Shown here: positions 11,475 through 17,342 of the stretch, in pieces
Position numbering within the stretch: position 1 is the first letter of the stretch
Layout: each line of letters starts with the position of its first letter
Source of the DNA: Fidelibacterota bacterium
GTDB taxonomy: Bacteria > Fidelibacterota > UBA8477 > JABMPR01
DNA: 64,000 bases
Direction: 5' to 3'
Assembly (NCBI GenBank): GCA_016845065.1
Contig: JAERTG010000092.1
Coordinates: 1-64,000 of the forward strand
Program-made: the position numbers and the translations under genes
Notes under the pieces: model-generated
Told to the model about the DNA's origin: nothing
What the model saw: only the letters and a program-made list of their open reading frames with translations
Database searches by the model: none

Positions 11475-12347
11475 ATGTATAAAATTATTAAGGCTGAGTT
11501 CATCGCATCTAATGTGAAAAGTTTCATTCTCGAAGCACCTCACATAGCAAAAAAACGTAAAGCAGGTCAATTCATTATTCTGCGTGTTCACGATAAAGGT
11601 GAACGTATTCCAATTACTATTGCTGATTCAAATACCGAAGAGGGTTGGATCAACATCATTGTCCAAGGCTTGGGGAAAACGAGTGTTCATTTAAATACGC
11701 TTGAAACTGGGGACTACCTGCAAGACCTGGTTGGCCCTCTGGGACTACCAACCCATATTGAGAATTGGGGCACCCTGGTTTGTATGAGCGGTGGTGTAGG
11801 TACTGCCGAGGCACTTCCCATTGCAGCAGCTGGCAAAGCTGCTGGTAATAGAGTGATTTCCATTATTGGTGCTCGCAATAAAGATTTGATTATTGCTGAG
11901 GAACAGATGGCGGAAGTTGTTGAGGAAGTGAGAATCTCTACAGATGATGGTTCTGCCGGACGTCACGGTCTTGTCACCGATGTGTTACAGGATCTCATCG
12001 ATGAGGGTATCACACCAGATATGATTGTCGCTATTGGACCCTTACCCATGATGGCTGCAGTCTCCAATCAGACCAAGGAAATTGGTATTCCCACTATGGT
12101 AAGCTTGAACGCTATTATGGTTGATGGAACAGGTATGTGCGGTGCCTGCCGTGCAACAGTAGGTGGAAAAACAGTATTTGTCTGCGTTGACGGACCAGAG
12201 TTTGATGGACATCAAGTCGATTTTAAAGAATTGGGTAGCCGCCAGAAAATGTATAAGAAGCAGGAAGAAGAATCTCACAAATGTTTCCTTGAACGACAGA
12301 TGAAGAAGGTGAAGGCTGAACAATTGAAAGAGGAGGTTGTATCATGA
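11475..12347 (+). CDS. nfnA: NfnA: NADH-dependent ferredoxin:NADP+ oxidoreductase, small subunit
   Basis: A 290-residue FAD/[2Fe-2S] subunit related to the dihydroorotate dehydrogenase electron-transfer subunit (also called sulfide dehydrogenase subunit beta). The FAD domain includes RIPITIAD near 44-51, and the NAD-binding domain includes MSGGVGTAEALP (about 104-115). The cluster site has Asp217 with Cys222, Cys225 and Cys237, the Asp plus three-Cys pattern known for NfnA. With NfnB it can bifurcate electrons from NADPH to ferredoxin and NAD+, or run in reverse. It overlaps nfnB by 4 bases (ATGA). AACAGGAGTGAG just before the ATG serves as ribosome-binding site. Confidence 0.92.
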   Translation: MYKIIKAEFIASNVKSFILEAPHIAKKRKAGQFIILRVHDKGERIPITIADSNTEEGWINIIVQGLGKTSVHLNTLETGDYLQDLVGPLGLPTHIENWGTLVCMSGGVGTAEALPIAAAGKAAGNRVISIIGARNKDLIIAEEQMAEVVEEVRISTDDGSAGRHGLVTDVLQDLIDEGITPDMIVAIGPLPMMAAVSNQTKEIGIPTMVSLNAIMVDGTGMCGACRATVGGKTVFVCVDGPEFDGHQVDFKELGSRQKMYKKQEEESHKCFLERQMKKVKAEQLKEEVVS

Positions 12348-13801
12348 AACGAGAACGTCCTCAATCATTCAACACCGTTCCTATGAAGGAGCGCATGATC
12401 ATCCCCCGGCAGGATATGCCCGAACAGGATGCAGGTATTCGAAGCGCAAATTTTCTCGAAGTAAATTTAGGTCTCACACCTGAGCAGGCTGTTGTTGAAG
12501 CTCAACGTTGTATCGAATGTAAAAGCCCGACTTGCATGGATGGATGCCCCGTCAATATCAAAATTCCTGATTTTATTCAGCTGATCTGCAAAGAGGATTT
12601 TGTCGGTGCTGCCCAAAAAATTAAGGAAGACAATTCACTCCCGGCCATCTGCGGACGCGTGTGTCCCCAGGAAACTCAGTGCGAAGAAGTTTGTGTCATG
12701 GGGAAACGCTTTGAACCGGTTGCAATCGGACGCCTTGAGAGGTTTGTTGCCGACTATGCCATGCAGCATGGTAACGGCTCCCAGGAGACCTTTGATAAAC
12801 CAGCCTCATCTGGACAAAAAGTTGCCATTGTTGGTTCAGGACCTGCGGGTTTAGCCGTTGCAAGTGACCTCATTAAAGAAGGTCATGAAGTCACCGTTTT
12901 TGAGGCTTTACATGAATTTGGCGGTGTCTTGGTATATGGTATCCCAGAATTTCGACTCCCTAAATCAATATTGCGGGAAGAAGTCGCTACCTTGGAAGCA
13001 ATGGGTGTGAAGTTCGTGAAGAATTTTATCGTTGGCCGTACCATGACGATACAGGAACTCATGGCTAACGAGGGTTATGATGCCGTATTCCTGGGCTTGG
13101 GTGCTGGCCTCCCTCGATTTATGAACATCCCGGGTGAAAATCTTAATGGAGTGTACTCAGCCAATGAGTTTTTAACTCGTTCAAATCTCATGCGGGGTTA
13201 TGACTTTCCAGAATGGGATACACCCCTTTATCGGGCTAAACATGCCATTATAGTTGGTGGTGGAAACACGGCTATGGATGCGGTCCGAACCGCCAAGCGT
13301 CTGGGAGCTGATGAAGCCTCGATTGTCTACCGTCGATCTGAAGAGGAAATGCCCGCCAGAAATGAAGAGATTCATCACGCCAAGGAAGAAGGCATCAAAT
13401 TTATGAATCTGGTTAATCCCATTGAGTTTATTAGTGATGACCAGGGCAGTGTAGTAGCAGCTAAGTGTCTACGTATGGAGCTGGGAGAACCTGATGAATC
13501 TGGTCGTCGTCGTCCTGTACCCATGGAAGGCTCCGAATTCGTCATGGATGTGGATATGGTGGTTATAGCAGTCGGGAATGGCTCTAACCCATTGATTTCA
13601 CAAACCACACCAGAAATCGAAACCAACAAGTGGGGCAATATTGTTGCTGATGAAGATGGCAGAACCTCAATGGATGGTGTATTTGCTGGTGGGGATATCG
13701 TCAGCGGTGGTGCCACAGTGATTTTAGCTATGGGGGCCGGTCGAAAATCAGCAGTTGCCATAAATGAGTATTTGAAAGCCAAGGTAGGGAGCCAAGCATG
13801 A
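12344..13801 (+). CDS. nfnB: NfnB: NADPH-binding large subunit (GltD-like)
   Basis: A 485-residue flavoprotein of the glutamate-synthase small-subunit family. The N-terminal domain holds the Cys sets for two [4Fe-4S] clusters: CIECKSPTCMDGCP (about 64-77) and CGRVCPQETQCEEVC (about 102-116). An FAD dinucleotide motif (GSGPAGLAVASDLI, about 163-176) and an NADPH motif (VGGGNTAMDAVRTAKRLGA, about 302-320) follow. Alone it could be mistaken for NADPH-dependent glutamate synthase. The directly overlapping NfnA gene and absence of a GltB gene here support NfnB. It overlaps the rubrerythrin gene by 4 bases, so the three are translationally coupled. Confidence 0.9.
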   Translation: MKRERPQSFNTVPMKERMIIPRQDMPEQDAGIRSANFLEVNLGLTPEQAVVEAQRCIECKSPTCMDGCPVNIKIPDFIQLICKEDFVGAAQKIKEDNSLPAICGRVCPQETQCEEVCVMGKRFEPVAIGRLERFVADYAMQHGNGSQETFDKPASSGQKVAIVGSGPAGLAVASDLIKEGHEVTVFEALHEFGGVLVYGIPEFRLPKSILREEVATLEAMGVKFVKNFIVGRTMTIQELMANEGYDAVFLGLGAGLPRFMNIPGENLNGVYSANEFLTRSNLMRGYDFPEWDTPLYRAKHAIIVGGGNTAMDAVRTAKRLGADEASIVYRRSEEEMPARNEEIHHAKEEGIKFMNLVNPIEFISDDQGSVVAAKCLRMELGEPDESGRRRPVPMEGSEFVMDVDMVVIAVGNGSNPLISQTTPEIETNKWGNIVADEDGRTSMDGVFAGGDIVSGGATVILAMGAGRKSAVAINEYLKAKVGSQA

Positions 13802-14262
13802 GCTTAAAGGATAAAATCAGTTCAATGGATATGGATGCTATTGTTGAAATGTGCATCAACCAGGAGCAACAGGCTATTGATCTATATACGCTTGCTAGAG
13901 ATCAGGCCAAGGATGAAGCCTCTCGCCAGAAATTTCAGGAATTAGTGGATATGGAGACAGCCCACAAAGTTTCCCTGAAAAATTTTGAGATCGAAAATTA
14001 CATCGAGCTTCCGCCTGCTGATCTTAAAGTCACCAATTACCTCATGGAACCTGAGCTCAAAGACAACATGACGACTCAAGAGATCATTATTCTGGCTGCT
14101 AAAAGAGAAGACAAGACTGCTCGAATGTATCAGGATTTAGCCGATCACTTCATCTCCGATAAGAAGCTGAATACCTTCTTCCAAATGATGGCCGATGAAG
14201 AGTTGCGCCATAAACACGATCTCGAAACTGAATACGAAAACGAATTCCTACAGGAAGGTTAG
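13798..14262 (+). CDS. rubrerythrin-type ferritin-like protein without rubredoxin domain
   Basis: A 154-residue di-iron four-helix-bundle protein. Candidate iron ligands are Glu23, Glu53-x2-His56 (METAH), Glu104 (KREDKTARMY) and Glu135-x2-His138 (DEELRH). The C-terminal rubredoxin domain of classical rubrerythrin is missing, so electrons must come from a separate partner. The start overlaps nfnB by 4 bases, which makes NfnAB-linked NAD(P)H or ferredoxin a plausible source. Likely role: peroxide reduction or iron handling in oxygen-stressed anaerobic metabolism (inference from family). A terminator follows. Confidence 0.85.
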   Translation: MSLKDKISSMDMDAIVEMCINQEQQAIDLYTLARDQAKDEASRQKFQELVDMETAHKVSLKNFEIENYIELPPADLKVTNYLMEPELKDNMTTQEIIILAAKREDKTARMYQDLADHFISDKKLNTFFQMMADEELRHKHDLETEYENEFLQEG

Positions 14263-14289
14263 TTTTCCTGACATTGCGACATTGAAAAG

Positions 14290-14319
14290 GCCCCGTCTAT
14301 GGCGGGGCTTTTTATTTTT
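14290..14319 (+). terminator. rho-independent terminator of the nfn-rubrerythrin operon
   Basis: GCCCCG (14290-14295) pairs with CGGGGC (14303-14308) around a TCTATGG loop, followed by TTTTTATTTTT. It also lies at the 3' end of the convergent minus-strand redox locus. Confidence 0.9.
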
Positions 14320-14331
14320 AAACAGATGGGT

Positions 14332-14853
14332 CTAATAGCTCTTTGATCGGATCAATCTATCCACACCAATAAGCATGATGGGCAATATGACCAAAGGAAT
14401 GAGCTGGTATGTGAATGCTGTTGAAACCAGGGCACCACCAAGCAGACCGATTGAGATAAAACCGAATTTCAAGAGATAGTAAAAAACTTTAGCGCATAGG
14501 ATGGATACGGTTCCAGCGAGGAGAAGGGAGTCCTTCTTTGAAAGTATCCAGTGAAACAGAACGACATTTAGACTCAGCTCAGAGGCGATTAGGATGTTCT
14601 TTGGAAAAACAGGGTGACCTGAAAACAAGGTGGACAGAAAGGGGATTGTGGCTGCTAACACGATGGAATTCATCCTGTGGGTCGTGAGCAACGTCAGAAA
14701 CAGAAGAAGACGCATTGGGTCGACCATATAAAGGGGGATGGGAAGAACATGGGTAAGTCCAGGAAGAATATACAGCGCTACAATTATTCCTAAATCCACC
14801 AGACTCGTTGTGGTGACCTCTCTTGACCATAGGGCGGTTTTTGTATAGTTCAT
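14332..14853 (-). CDS. ECF-transporter S-component-like membrane protein
   Basis: A 173-residue protein with five or six membrane helices. The segment PFLSTLFSGHPVFPKNILIASELSLNVV (given as positions about 69-96) recalls the SGHPxFP...ELS region of energy-coupling-factor S components of unknown substrate. I infer the family from this only. ATG 14853 is chosen because AGAGGA lies 7 bases upstream and the start falls 16 bases after the polyferredoxin stop; longer readings would run into that gene. No ECF ATPase or T subunit is nearby. Its association with the Tat/Fe-S genes upstream is unexplained. Confidence 0.55.
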   Translation of the reverse strand: MNYTKTALWSREVTTTSLVDLGIIVALYILPGLTHVLPIPLYMVDPMRLLLFLTLLTTHRMNSIVLAATIPFLSTLFSGHPVFPKNILIASELSLNVVLFHWILSKKDSLLLAGTVSILCAKVFYYLLKFGFISIGLLGGALVSTAFTYQLIPLVILPIMLIGVDRLIRSKSY

Positions 14854-14869
14854 GGGTAGTTCCTCTAGT

Positions 14870-16432
14870 TTAGCCGTAATATGTTGCATCCTCCTGGGGA
14901 TCAGCAGGTTTGGTAACGAAGATCCCTGCTTCTCCATCCAGTGGACATTTAAATTCACAAATTCCACAACCAATGCACAGTTCCGGTTCCAAATATGGAA
15001 GTTTTAACGCTCTCACTTCACCATGAGGCAGCTCTACATCCTTCGTCTCGAACTTGATTGCTTTTTCTGGAGTGGGGCAATGTTCTTCACATACAATACA
15101 ATCCTCATCCCGGGCGAATGGAATACACAGGTCTTCGCGAAAATATGCGGTCCCCATGACCCAGGCTTGTTTCTCATCCAGTGCTATAGGTTTGATGGCA
15201 TCAGTAGGACAGACCTCTGCGCAGAGATTGCAGTTGTACTCACAATACCCTGTTCTCATCTGTGCTGCCGGAAGCCATAGTTGGGTTAAGGAGCTGTGAA
15301 AAGCATCTGGTTGAAGGCAGCCCCCGTTGGATTCACAAATTCGCACACACTCCAGGCAGCGGATACATTTGTCTTCAAATTCAGATTCAGCGAGTGAACC
15401 AGGCGGTCTGATAAGATGCCGGGCATGATTCCTGTTGGGGAGACCTAGACTAAGTAGTCCCAGACCACCCAAACCTGTGAGCATGCCTCCCAGAACCTGC
15501 CGACGACTTAGATCCAGCTCGGTATGATAGGGTTTCCAGCTCCAGCGGTAGGTTATAGCCTTAGTTTTGGGTGGGCAGGCAGCACCACAGTTAAAACACT
15601 CGATACACTCAACTTTGTTTGTCCTTGAAACGTCGTCTTGTGGGATCGCATCCATTTTGCATTCGCTGATACACAGATTGCATGCCGGGCATTCCTCCCC
15701 AACCAGTCGTTCATAAAACCGGAATTGCGACAGGAACCCCAACAGAGCTCCTGCTGGACAAACATAGCGACACCAGAATCTTCTGGAAAGCTTCTCCGCA
15801 GCCAGGATTCCGCCACTGAATACGGAAATGAGCAAAACCTGCTGATAGTAAGCCTGTCCTTCAGGCATCATATTATCCTTGAACAGATCATACAGGTAAT
15901 ATGCGGGAGTCTCAAGGAAAGATATGCTGGAAAGCGCAATGAGTAGGTTCTCGGAAAACAAAGTAGCCAGGGGGTAAAGGATGACAGTGAGCATCCGATT
16001 AAATATTGAGAGTGGATCGAGGTATCCCCACAGATTCAGTGAGAGTACAGCCATTATGATCAGAGCAATGAGATTGGCAAACTTCAGATAACGCCAGCGA
16101 TCCCATGAGCGAGCAAGCTTATTTTTCGGAGTGTTTATTAGTTTGTCAGTTGCATCAAGACAGGTCCCTAAGGGGCAGATCCATGAGCAAAAGAACCGAC
16201 CGAGAAATGGGGTCAGAATAAGTATGATCAGACCAGGAATAACGAGAGGTGGTATGGAGAGGGTATCAATAAATGTGAAAAGTGGGATCAGGGGGCTCAA
16301 CCTCAACCCAAAATCCGAGCCCATAATGATCTCATATGGATAACGGGCAACTAGGAATAAGTATATGAAAAGAATGAAGAATGCGACCTGGACAAGTTTC
16401 CGTAGATTCTGCATGCTCATGGAGAAGTTCAT
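14870..16432 (-). CDS. NapH/NapG-like fused membrane polyferredoxin with internal twin-arginine motif
   Basis: About 520 residues (numbering from ATG 16432). The first 230 form a NapH/NosR-type membrane domain with about five helices and two CxxxCP motifs (CSWICP near 82, CRYVCP near 221). Two [4Fe-4S] sets follow (CPACNLCISEC, CIECFNCGAACP). Then LSRRQVLGGML (about 308-318), which looks like a Tat signal core, precedes a hydrophobic stretch. Four more ferredoxin-like Cys sets follow, as in periplasmic NapG/MauM. It reads as NapH fused to NapG. The DUF362 gene lies 10 bases upstream. Likely role: passing electrons between quinol and an extracytoplasmic acceptor (inference). A start at 16468 is possible but would overlap the DUF362 gene. 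Confidence 0.8.
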   Translation of the reverse strand: MNFSMSMQNLRKLVQVAFFILFIYLFLVARYPYEIIMGSDFGLRLSPLIPLFTFIDTLSIPPLVIPGLIILILTPFLGRFFCSWICPLGTCLDATDKLINTPKNKLARSWDRWRYLKFANLIALIIMAVLSLNLWGYLDPLSIFNRMLTVILYPLATLFSENLLIALSSISFLETPAYYLYDLFKDNMMPEGQAYYQQVLLISVFSGGILAAEKLSRRFWCRYVCPAGALLGFLSQFRFYERLVGEECPACNLCISECKMDAIPQDDVSRTNKVECIECFNCGAACPPKTKAITYRWSWKPYHTELDLSRRQVLGGMLTGLGGLGLLSLGLPNRNHARHLIRPPGSLAESEFEDKCIRCLECVRICESNGGCLQPDAFHSSLTQLWLPAAQMRTGYCEYNCNLCAEVCPTDAIKPIALDEKQAWVMGTAYFREDLCIPFARDEDCIVCEEHCPTPEKAIKFETKDVELPHGEVRALKLPYLEPELCIGCGICEFKCPLDGEAGIFVTKPADPQEDATYYG

Positions 16433-16442
16433 CCCTGTAGAC

Positions 16443-17342
16443 CTATCCCAGATCGATCCGTTCAACATTCAGATTGGTTGTATCATAGAGGGCTAATCCA
16501 CGTTTGACTGCCACATCGATCTGCTTGATGTCAGATACTGCGTGACCAAACAACTCGAGTCCAAGCACATCTGCGCTCACCGTACAAGGGCTAGCGATCA
16601 TAGCTCTTTCCATACGGACGTCGTCCAGGTCTCCACCTGAAGGTCCATTGTCCATGAGCATTCGGTAGGCATCGATCACGGTGAGAGTGGGCATTATGTG
16701 CTGTGTGATATCGGCCATTTTGTCGGCAAACTTCACATGTATCAATCCTCGTCTGCCTCCCATTACACCCATCAGGTTCTTCAAACCGAGGGACACTTTT
16801 GCCATTCCGTGATGTTTTGCGATGGGAATATTGATGACCTTATCTGCTTCGAGATAGTCTTTATAGATCGGCCATGAATCCAGGACCTCGCCCTTTAGCT
16901 CCAGATCTTCGTACCTGTTGCTTCTTACCTGGACTACATTGGCGCCAGCAGCAGTAGCTGCATCATTGATACCGGAATTTCGGTAGCATCGCCGAGGCTC
17001 ATTGCATGTGCGATCCAGCACTTTCACCTCAGTTGCTCCAGCGTTTAAACAAAGTCTTGTAATGGCAGCAACCACTTCAGGATTGGTATTGGCTGCATAG
17101 GCGGGACCACGATCCCAGGCCATATTGGGTTTAAGAAGAACCTTATCACCACGCTGGACAAAACGTTCAATCCCCCCCAAGGCTTTCATCGCCGCTGATA
17201 CCAATGATTCAGGTTCACCATTGCGGACGATAACTGCCTGGGGTAGCTCATTTACCTGGGCGAACAATTGCCACCTGGAAAGTGGTAAAGACATGGCCAT
17301 TGTACCAATTGCTGAAGTCTTTAAGAATTCACGACGCTTCAT
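16443..17342 (-). CDS. Tat-exported DUF362-family protein
   Basis: A 299-residue protein beginning MKRREFLKTSAIG, a textbook twin-arginine signal (RRxFLK), so it should be folded with cofactor before export. The body matches DUF362: VLLKPNMAWDRGPAYAANTNPEV near 68-90, INIPIAKHHGMAKVSLGLKN near 190, and GGRRGLIH near 217. This copy has no ferredoxin motif of its own; scattered Cys residues include CNEPRRC. AGGAGG sits 7 bases before the ATG. As first gene of a three-gene unit with the polyferredoxin and ECF-S-like genes, it is probably an exported partner of the redox chain. DUF362 chemistry is not established. Confidence 0.82.
   Translation of the reverse strand: MKRREFLKTSAIGTMAMSLPLSRWQLFAQVNELPQAVIVRNGEPESLVSAAMKALGGIERFVQRGDKVLLKPNMAWDRGPAYAANTNPEVVAAITRLCLNAGATEVKVLDRTCNEPRRCYRNSGINDAATAAGANVVQVRSNRYEDLELKGEVLDSWPIYKDYLEADKVINIPIAKHHGMAKVSLGLKNLMGVMGGRRGLIHVKFADKMADITQHIMPTLTVIDAYRMLMDNGPSGGDLDDVRMERAMIASPCTVSADVLGLELFGHAVSDIKQIDVAVKRGLALYDTTNLNVERIDLG

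Follow-up and report, generated by a model that had tools for sequence, protein, structure and literature searches.

On the minus strand of the Fidelibacterota contig stretch analyzed here (64,000 nucleotides; the window), a membrane polyferredoxin gene lies between a DUF362 protein gene and a small hydrophobic gene. A preliminary description had treated positions 14332–17342 as an undescribed three-gene membrane redox module with no catalytic reductase nearby, in which the DUF362 protein might be the terminal enzyme or a cofactor carrier. All three genes are real: D362 (DUF362 protein, 299 aa, 16443..17342), FdM (NapH-NapG fusion polyferredoxin, 532 aa, 14870..16468, with M13 at 16432 also possible as the start) and S (small membrane protein without known family, 173 aa, 14332..14853). 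The TTG start first proposed for S, at 14973, falls inside the FdM gene, and the ATG at 14853 is the most likely start. A terminator-like hairpin (14285..14313) separates the module operon from a convergent operon with an NfnAB-like flavoprotein pair and a ferritin-like gene; such hairpins show no enrichment in the region (three, against a shuffle mean of 2.9). The lack of a catalytic reductase holds true of the operon itself, the NfnAB-like pair lying only beyond it, on the opposite strand.

The polyferredoxin and its conserved DUF362 partner

FdM matches the NapG model (1.7e-23 over residues 318–518) and the NapH/MauN model (6e-13), both below curated cut-offs, and Fer4_5 above cut-off. Its NapH-like part (15569..16411, minus strand), delimited by hydropathy and conserved cysteines, contains four hydrophobic regions, two CxxxCP motifs (Cys 94/98/233/237) and two [4Fe-4S] motifs predicted to be cytoplasmic (Cys 260–270 and 288–298). 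The NapG-like part (14915..15433, minus strand; mauM_napG 2.6e-17 over 346–517, below cut-off) carries four further [4Fe-4S] motifs, predicted to lie outside the membrane (Cys 368–378, 409–420, 448–464 and 498–508). The cluster cysteines are near-invariant across the alignment. A twin arginine, R322-R323 (15500..15505, minus strand), stands just ahead of a fifth hydrophobic region (325–343), and of 81 aligned sequences, 80 cover that position, 73 of these having the internal RR. The NapH/NapG fusion was correctly recognized at the outset; the estimate of about six clusters is replaced by seven, as six classical four-Cys sets are joined by the pair of CxxxCP motifs, the number also given for the PFD family in the available text of PMC5449189.

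PFD is a dual Sec-Tat polyferredoxin family (Tooke et al. 2017, PMC5449189); in the text available to us, reporters fused behind the transmembrane region of its MLMS-1 member (Q1NSB0) were exported in a Tat-dependent manner. FdM shares with it the NapH-NapG fusion, five transmembrane segments, the twin arginine before the fifth, and a predicted split of the clusters into three on the cytoplasmic side and four on the outer side. Judged by this architecture, FdM would be a PFD member. Unlike in the present locus, where the partner was identified from the gene neighborhood, the available text of PMC5449189 names no DUF362 partner. FdM also resembles NapGH (and MauMN) in cluster layout and in a likely electron path from quinol to periplasm; however, it is fused in one protein, its operon lacks NapA or another terminal reductase, and its partner is a predicted LarA-fold protein.

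Of at least 545 FdM loci, the 80 best by FdM similarity, from many phyla, were compared, and at 69 of these the gene immediately upstream on the same strand is D362. Among the remaining 11, D362 is partial at a contig edge in two (L040, L045), downstream or one to three genes off in four (L036, L038, L044, L057) and not found upstream in three (L050, L077, L079), while two loci begin within FdM (L025, L072). The pair also occurs in Parabacteroides distasonis, where D362 is WP_005857469.1; this is a culturable gut bacterium, which makes the module testable. Geotalea toluenoxydans is a further, non-pathogenic carrier. For five weaker FdM matches within the phylum, D362 adjoins in three (G238, G227, G040); in the other two, G228 and G229, the gene preceding FdM does not match D362 and by inspection looks PfkB sugar kinase-like. 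The D362 and FdM distance matrices are correlated (Mantel r 0.81, n=67, 0/2000 permutations), a correlation that shared species descent would also yield. D362 and FdM form a conserved two-gene core, paired more often than by chance and recurring in several phyla beyond this genome. Of the proposed three-gene module, this pair stands and S drops out, since it adjoins FdM in only 4/25 FdM-bearing genomes of the phylum.

Of 65 operonic neighbors listed, 56 were scanned, and within the 25 leading families of the 102 tallied no terminal-reductase family was common to three or more of them. The nine omitted, in a choice made without a fixed rule, were a protein of 1104 aa (L077) and eight of 130–163 aa. 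Apart from D362 and the AmmeMemoRadiSam genes, the recurring families in this tally are all small: DUF3047 and OpuAC (four each), Amidase_3 (three) and aldo-keto reductase (two). At three loci, genes resembling aldo-keto reductases occur close to the pair. Neighbors vary by lineage and thus point to no substrate. The most widespread other neighbor cluster occurs at 19 loci, on both strands and at scattered positions.

Because no terminal reductase was observed to recur beside the D362-FdM unit, and no pairing of the two-gene core with a known one was seen elsewhere, D362 itself is the natural candidate for the terminal partner, as initially suggested; the predicted fold described below would fit an enzyme or a cofactor carrier. 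The label "undescribed" applies in part: the polyferredoxin family was already known (PMC5449189), whereas its pairing with a DUF362 partner is the new element, no paper on such a pair having been found in the literature searched. Linking D362 to a defined polyferredoxin gives each orphan a partner.

Predicted fold and conserved residues of D362

D362 matches Pfam DUF362 at 1.5e-50. Its N-terminus, MKRREFLK, opens a predicted twin-arginine signal of about residues 1–28 (17259..17342, minus strand), and export as a Tat substrate is likewise a prediction, the Pfam TAT_signal match (E 0.02) being below cut-off. The motif is nonetheless well conserved: R3 is aligned in 70/70 and R4 in 67/70 homologs, and a strict RRx-hydrophobic pattern occurs within the first 75 residues of 64/70 D362 sequences. 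Fourteen columns are invariant among 67 sequences, including K71-P72-N73, K176, H178, K188, H202 and D224. H178, K188 and H202 (stretch 16737..16811, minus strand), each present in 70/70 aligned sequences, keep a nearly fixed spacing (H-x9-K in 68/70; K-x13-H in 59 and K-x12-H in 11), and the two histidines are the only invariant ones. No cysteine is invariant, the best column being C98 (59/70), which counts against the electron-accepting role proposed below.

No PDB entry matches this subfamily significantly by sequence. An AF2 model of D362 (mean pLDDT 93.5) was compared with the PDB by Foldseek, and all 19 matches at E<=0.001 were LarA-type enzymes, whose cofactor is the nickel-pincer nucleotide (NPN). 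The best E-value was 1.4e-7, with moderate TM-scores of 0.42–0.54. D362 therefore appears, from the predicted model, to have a LarA fold, and DUF362 shares Pfam clan CL0471 with the LarA superfamily. D362 has no match to the Lar_N profile, its only profile hits being DUF362 and the weak Tat signal, and hhalign against LarA alignments was not significant, so that fold and spacing are the basis for mapping residues between the two. According to the text available from PMC7583248, K184 and H200 of LarA are NPN ligands, and H108 and H174 form the catalytic pair. The H178-K188-H202 spacing of D362 resembles that of LarA H174-K184-H200, and we propose these residues as putative counterparts; with two invariant histidines in D362, a third histidine of LarA would have no invariant counterpart. 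Besides having no Lar_N match and only two invariant histidines, D362 differs from LarA in its predicted export, in its pairing with an Fe-S conduit and in the scarcity of LarC and LarE in the phylum. The predicted LarA fold offers a concrete pocket for testing D362.

Endogenous NPN was considered as the cofactor of the D362 subfamily and, judged by LarC and LarE, rejected. The genome of the window has no LarC and no LarE above cut-off; among 245 genomes of the phylum, LarC was found in 9 and LarE above cut-off in 8, all within those 9. LarC and LarE are missing in 23/25 FdM genomes of the phylum, being present only in G028 and G216, and home-made NPN is therefore unlikely there. A cofactor of D362 in Fidelibacterota would most likely be something other than endogenously made NPN. 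Outside the phylum, LarC occurs in 34/50 module genomes, at first sight an association; the list from which these 50 were drawn held 65 of the 80 loci. In the phylum of one deltaproteobacterial module locus this co-occurrence is background, because 252/297 genomes carry LarC anyway. LarC lies beside the module at 1/80 loci (L084, searched with a partial LarC query).

Proposed electron route, possible cofactor supply and accessory genes

We hypothesize, at roughly even chances, that the two proteins D362 and FdM work together as an extracytoplasmic redox module, in which FdM is the electron conduit and D362, exported and with a LarA fold, receives what it delivers. Insertion of FdM would begin with Sec, for four helices, and be completed by Tat, for the fifth. 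Electrons would enter on its NapH-like side from quinol or a cytoplasmic donor, cross the membrane through the seven [4Fe-4S] clusters to the NapG-like outer domain, and pass to D362, which FdM would contact there. D362 would fold in the cytoplasm, be exported by Tat and act as terminal partner and catalyst, its His/Lys/His set probably holding a cofactor or metal. S would be a lineage-specific accessory to the pair.

The same proteins could be connected in a different way, with FdM as a maintenance donor that reductively activates or repairs a non-redox D362, for instance one catalyzing a LarA-type hidden-redox isomerization of a periplasmic hydroxy acid. According to the text available from PMC12611868, LarA reactions involve no net redox change; the predicted D362 fold is that of LarA, and two invariant histidines are compatible with a modified LarA-like reaction. 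However, a seven-cluster wire kept across phyla would be costly for rare repair, and the absence of both LarC and LarE from nearly all FdM genomes of the phylum also weighs against this reading, which we consider unlikely. A role for D362 in binding or assembling an exported substrate, with expression as its only link to FdM, is quite improbable. The heterogeneous neighbors, several of them typically extracytoplasmic (OpuAC-like, NosD-like beta-helix, amidase), would suit such a function, but the fourteen invariant columns suggest a catalytic or cofactor-binding site, and it is FdM, rather than these neighbors, that recurs with D362.

A maturation role, in which FdM electrons feed AmmeMemoRadiSam enzymes (TIGR04335/04336/04337) whose task is to mature D362, or else its cofactor, ahead of export by Tat, has some genomic basis. 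In 13/25 FdM genomes of the phylum, radical SAM (rSAM) genes, Memo-AMMECR1 genes or both come after FdM on its contig and strand, and Memo is enriched in FdM genomes (23/25 FdM genomes against 62/220 others; 13/14 FdM genera against 24/70 others). Against it, the 13 genomes fall in two families only (f5, f9), these Memo and rSAM counts may reflect shared ancestry, and rSAM matches occur at just 3/80 loci (L028, L029, L068), two of them in genomes already among the 13 and the one at L068 on the opposite strand. In the genome of the window the AmmeMemoRadiSam genes are outside the operon, on another contig, and we give this role little credence.

For the conduit-fed module itself, a more specific version can be drawn, though we hold it to be a doubtful one. 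D362 would be an exported LarA-fold oxidoreductase whose cofactor, tethered to a lysine and different from endogenous NPN, is loaded in the cytoplasm; AmmeMemoRadiSam might assist in certain lineages. FdM would wire this enzyme to the quinone pool, and LarA-type hydride chemistry would become a net redox reaction beyond the cell membrane. If true, such a tethered cofactor would add a new branch to the chemistry of pincer-type cofactors.

S was described as ECF-S-like, and it could in principle be an S-component binding a vitamin- or quinone-like cofactor for the module, being small and hydrophobic with conserved H/K/Y/R positions. This assignment finds no support and is highly improbable: S belongs to no Pfam or NCBIfam family, hhalign against 12 PF12822-type proteins of relatives gave no match (0.4%, run without a positive control), and the genome, 93% complete, has no match to EcfT (PF02361) or PF12822. 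An AF2 model of S built with 3 sequences reached a pLDDT of 43.8. FdM is absent from 11/15 S-bearing genomes of the phylum, and S looks like a lineage-specific accessory or local add-on. In the doubtful version just outlined, it may supply the cofactor or a precursor in the few lineages that have it, because it also adjoins LarA homologs in seven genomes without detected LarC or LarE; in one further genome (G116), S lies beside a LarA homolog where both LarC and LarE were found.

Organization and distribution of the D362–FdM pair

In the window, a DUF362 protein of 299 aa with predicted Tat export (D362), a NapH–NapG fusion polyferredoxin of 532 aa (FdM) and a small membrane protein of 173 aa, counted from the ATG at 14853 (S), are encoded by three genes on the minus strand (14332-17342). 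With the longest start, the FdM gene shares 26 bases with that of D362, an overlap that disappears with the M13 start. A terminator-like hairpin (14285-14313) separates these genes from a convergent operon, in which an NfnAB/sulfide-dehydrogenase-like pair is followed by a ferritin-like gene (11475-14262). The ferritin-like gene shows weak similarity (E 0.0089) to the terminal part of the trifunctional PRK12775 model, so that the three genes may represent a split form of that protein.

A scan with the FdM alignment, employing one genome per species across 84,980 species, detected at least 545 relatives, of which the best 80 were used. Among these 80 loci, D362 was located immediately upstream of FdM and on the same strand in 69. 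The 11 exceptions comprise two loci in which D362 is incomplete because the contig ends there (L040, L045), one with D362 downstream of FdM (L036), three with D362 one to three genes away (L038, L044, L057), two whose sequence starts inside FdM (L025, L072), and three in which no D362 was found upstream (L050, L077 and L079, the last with just 423 upstream bases). These best 80 loci span, among others, Neomarinimicrobiota, KSB1, Deltaproteobacteria, Nitrospirae, Chloroflexi, Acidobacteria, Aminicenantes, Spirochaetes, Planctomycetota and a Methanoperedens archaeon. Parabacteroides distasonis carries the pair on a record labelled plasmid 5, annotated as a DUF362 protein and a 4Fe-4S dicluster protein (39% and 28% identity to D362 and FdM, respectively). 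Within the window's phylum, FdM was detected at E≤1e-60 in 25 of 245 genomes, four of which appear to be shared with the 80-locus set (L016, L017, L028, L029).

FdM architecture and the predicted LarA-type fold of D362

FdM matches the NapG (1.7e-23) and NapH/MauN (6e-13) models, both under the curated cut-offs. In an alignment of 81 sequences (the window and the best 80 of at least 545 relatives), the cluster cysteines are near-invariant and form two CxxxCP motifs (C94/C98 and C233/C237) and six four-Cys sets. Hydropathy reveals five hydrophobic regions, the fifth (325-343) immediately following R322-R323, a twin arginine shared by 73 of the 80 aligned sequences that have letters at this site. 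The same architecture is described for the dual Sec-Tat polyferredoxin (PFD) family (Tooke et al. 2017, PMC5449189), where Tat export of reporters was demonstrated for the MLMS-1 member; the comparison is by architecture. The FdM conduit is a variant of the NapGH/PFD kind.

A PDB sequence search with D362 yielded no significant match. The AF2 model, built from 67 sequences, reached a mean pLDDT of 93.5, and all 19 Foldseek matches at E≤0.001 were to LarA-type enzymes, the top one at 1.4e-7, with TM-scores, taken on the query, of 0.42-0.54. This agrees with the Pfam clan shared by DUF362 and DUF2088 (PMC11770544). The 67-sequence alignment contains 14 invariant columns. D362 has only two invariant histidines, and no cysteine column exceeds 59 of 70 sequences. 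H178 and K188 are separated by 9 residues in 68 of 70 sequences, and K188 and H202 by 13 (59/70) or 12 (11/70); in LarA, H174, K184 and H200 are separated by 9 and 15 residues in all 12 sequences examined. According to PMC7583248, R75, K184 and H200 of LarA contact the nickel-pincer nucleotide (NPN), and D72, H108, H174 and K298 are catalytic. From the fold and the similar spacing we infer that H178/K188/H202 are the counterparts of H174/K184/H200. Since the sequence-profile alignment of D362 with LarA was not significant and the active-site match is undecided, D362 is not assigned to LarA proper.

In the most likely scheme, the NapH-like side of FdM would take up electrons, its clusters would carry them across the membrane, and the NapG-like side would pass them to D362, which would catalyse a reaction or become activated by them. 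The structural and genomic parts of this scheme are computed; we infer the electron flow, the D362–FdM contact and the catalysis.

Cofactor supply

In the window's own genome, the NPN synthesis protein LarC was not found and LarE had no match above the cut-off. Across the phylum, LarC occurs in 9 and LarE in 8 of 245 genomes, and both together in just 2 of the 25 FdM genomes. LarC was detected in 34 of 50 tested module-bearing genomes elsewhere; this says nothing, however, because 252 of 297 genomes carry LarC in the phylum to which one of these belongs. Given the scarcity of both genes in the window's phylum and the 16 of 50 genomes elsewhere without detected LarC (completeness unstated), the module does not seem to need endogenously made NPN. 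NPN may be imported, or D362 may use another cofactor. Many Tat substrates cross the membrane folded with the cofactor inside, as PMC5449189 describes, and by analogy export of D362 in loaded form would fit. Separately, a LarC-like gene lies close to the pair in one locus (L084, 9791-10984), the sole such neighbour found with a partial LarC query among the best 80 of at least 545 loci.

Genes accompanying the pair

No family was found for S; the preliminary description had called it ECF-S-like, and it gave no ECF-S profile match, nor was EcfT found in its own genome. Profile relatives of S occur in 15 of 245 genomes of the phylum. Four of these also encode FdM (G000, G003, G006, G040), and S adjoins the pair in each, divergently in G040. 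In 9 of the 11 S genomes without FdM, S ends a cluster of HAD and kinase genes (L151-L153, L155, L156, L158-L161), with product names taken from L155 only and the other loci assigned via gene order, length and LarA alignment. Eight of the nine, those where the contig reaches, include a LarA-like gene retaining H-x9-K-x15-H, and most also contain a 489-aa gene, which in L155 is 6-phosphogluconate dehydrogenase. LarC or LarE exceeded the cut-off in only one of these nine genomes (G116).

AmmeMemoRadiSam genes, coding for a radical SAM protein and/or Memo-AMMECR1, lie downstream of FdM on its contig and in its orientation in 13 of the phylum's 25 FdM-bearing genomes (G025, G030, G035, G039, G233, G234, G235, G236, G237, G240, G242, G243, G244), which fall within two families only; the L012 copies match TIGR04335/04336/04337. 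Memo is present in 23 of 25 FdM genomes (absent from G003 and G040) versus 62 of 220 others, or, by genus, in 13 of 14 versus 24 of 70, counts uncorrected for shared ancestry. In the window's own genome, the Memo, AMMECR1 and radical SAM set lies on another contig (C82; L123, 8255-10740). A DUF6599-like gene recurs between FdM and the radical SAM gene in several loci, and a putative fusion of part of this gene to FdM gave only a weak signal in L074 and L079 (44 and 32 bits; two-sequence model).

In five loci (L037, L054, L056, L066, L083), the pair lies near several members of one BLAST-defined gene group, possibly an exported system; the names, taken from L066 only, are NosD-like beta-helix, carboxypeptidase-regulatory-like, DUF3467, OpuAC-like and DUF3047. 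Related aldo-keto reductase genes are located near the pair in L011 (5944-7125), L035 (7840-8838) and L078 (7803-9038), the L011 protein having a ferredoxin-like C-terminus.
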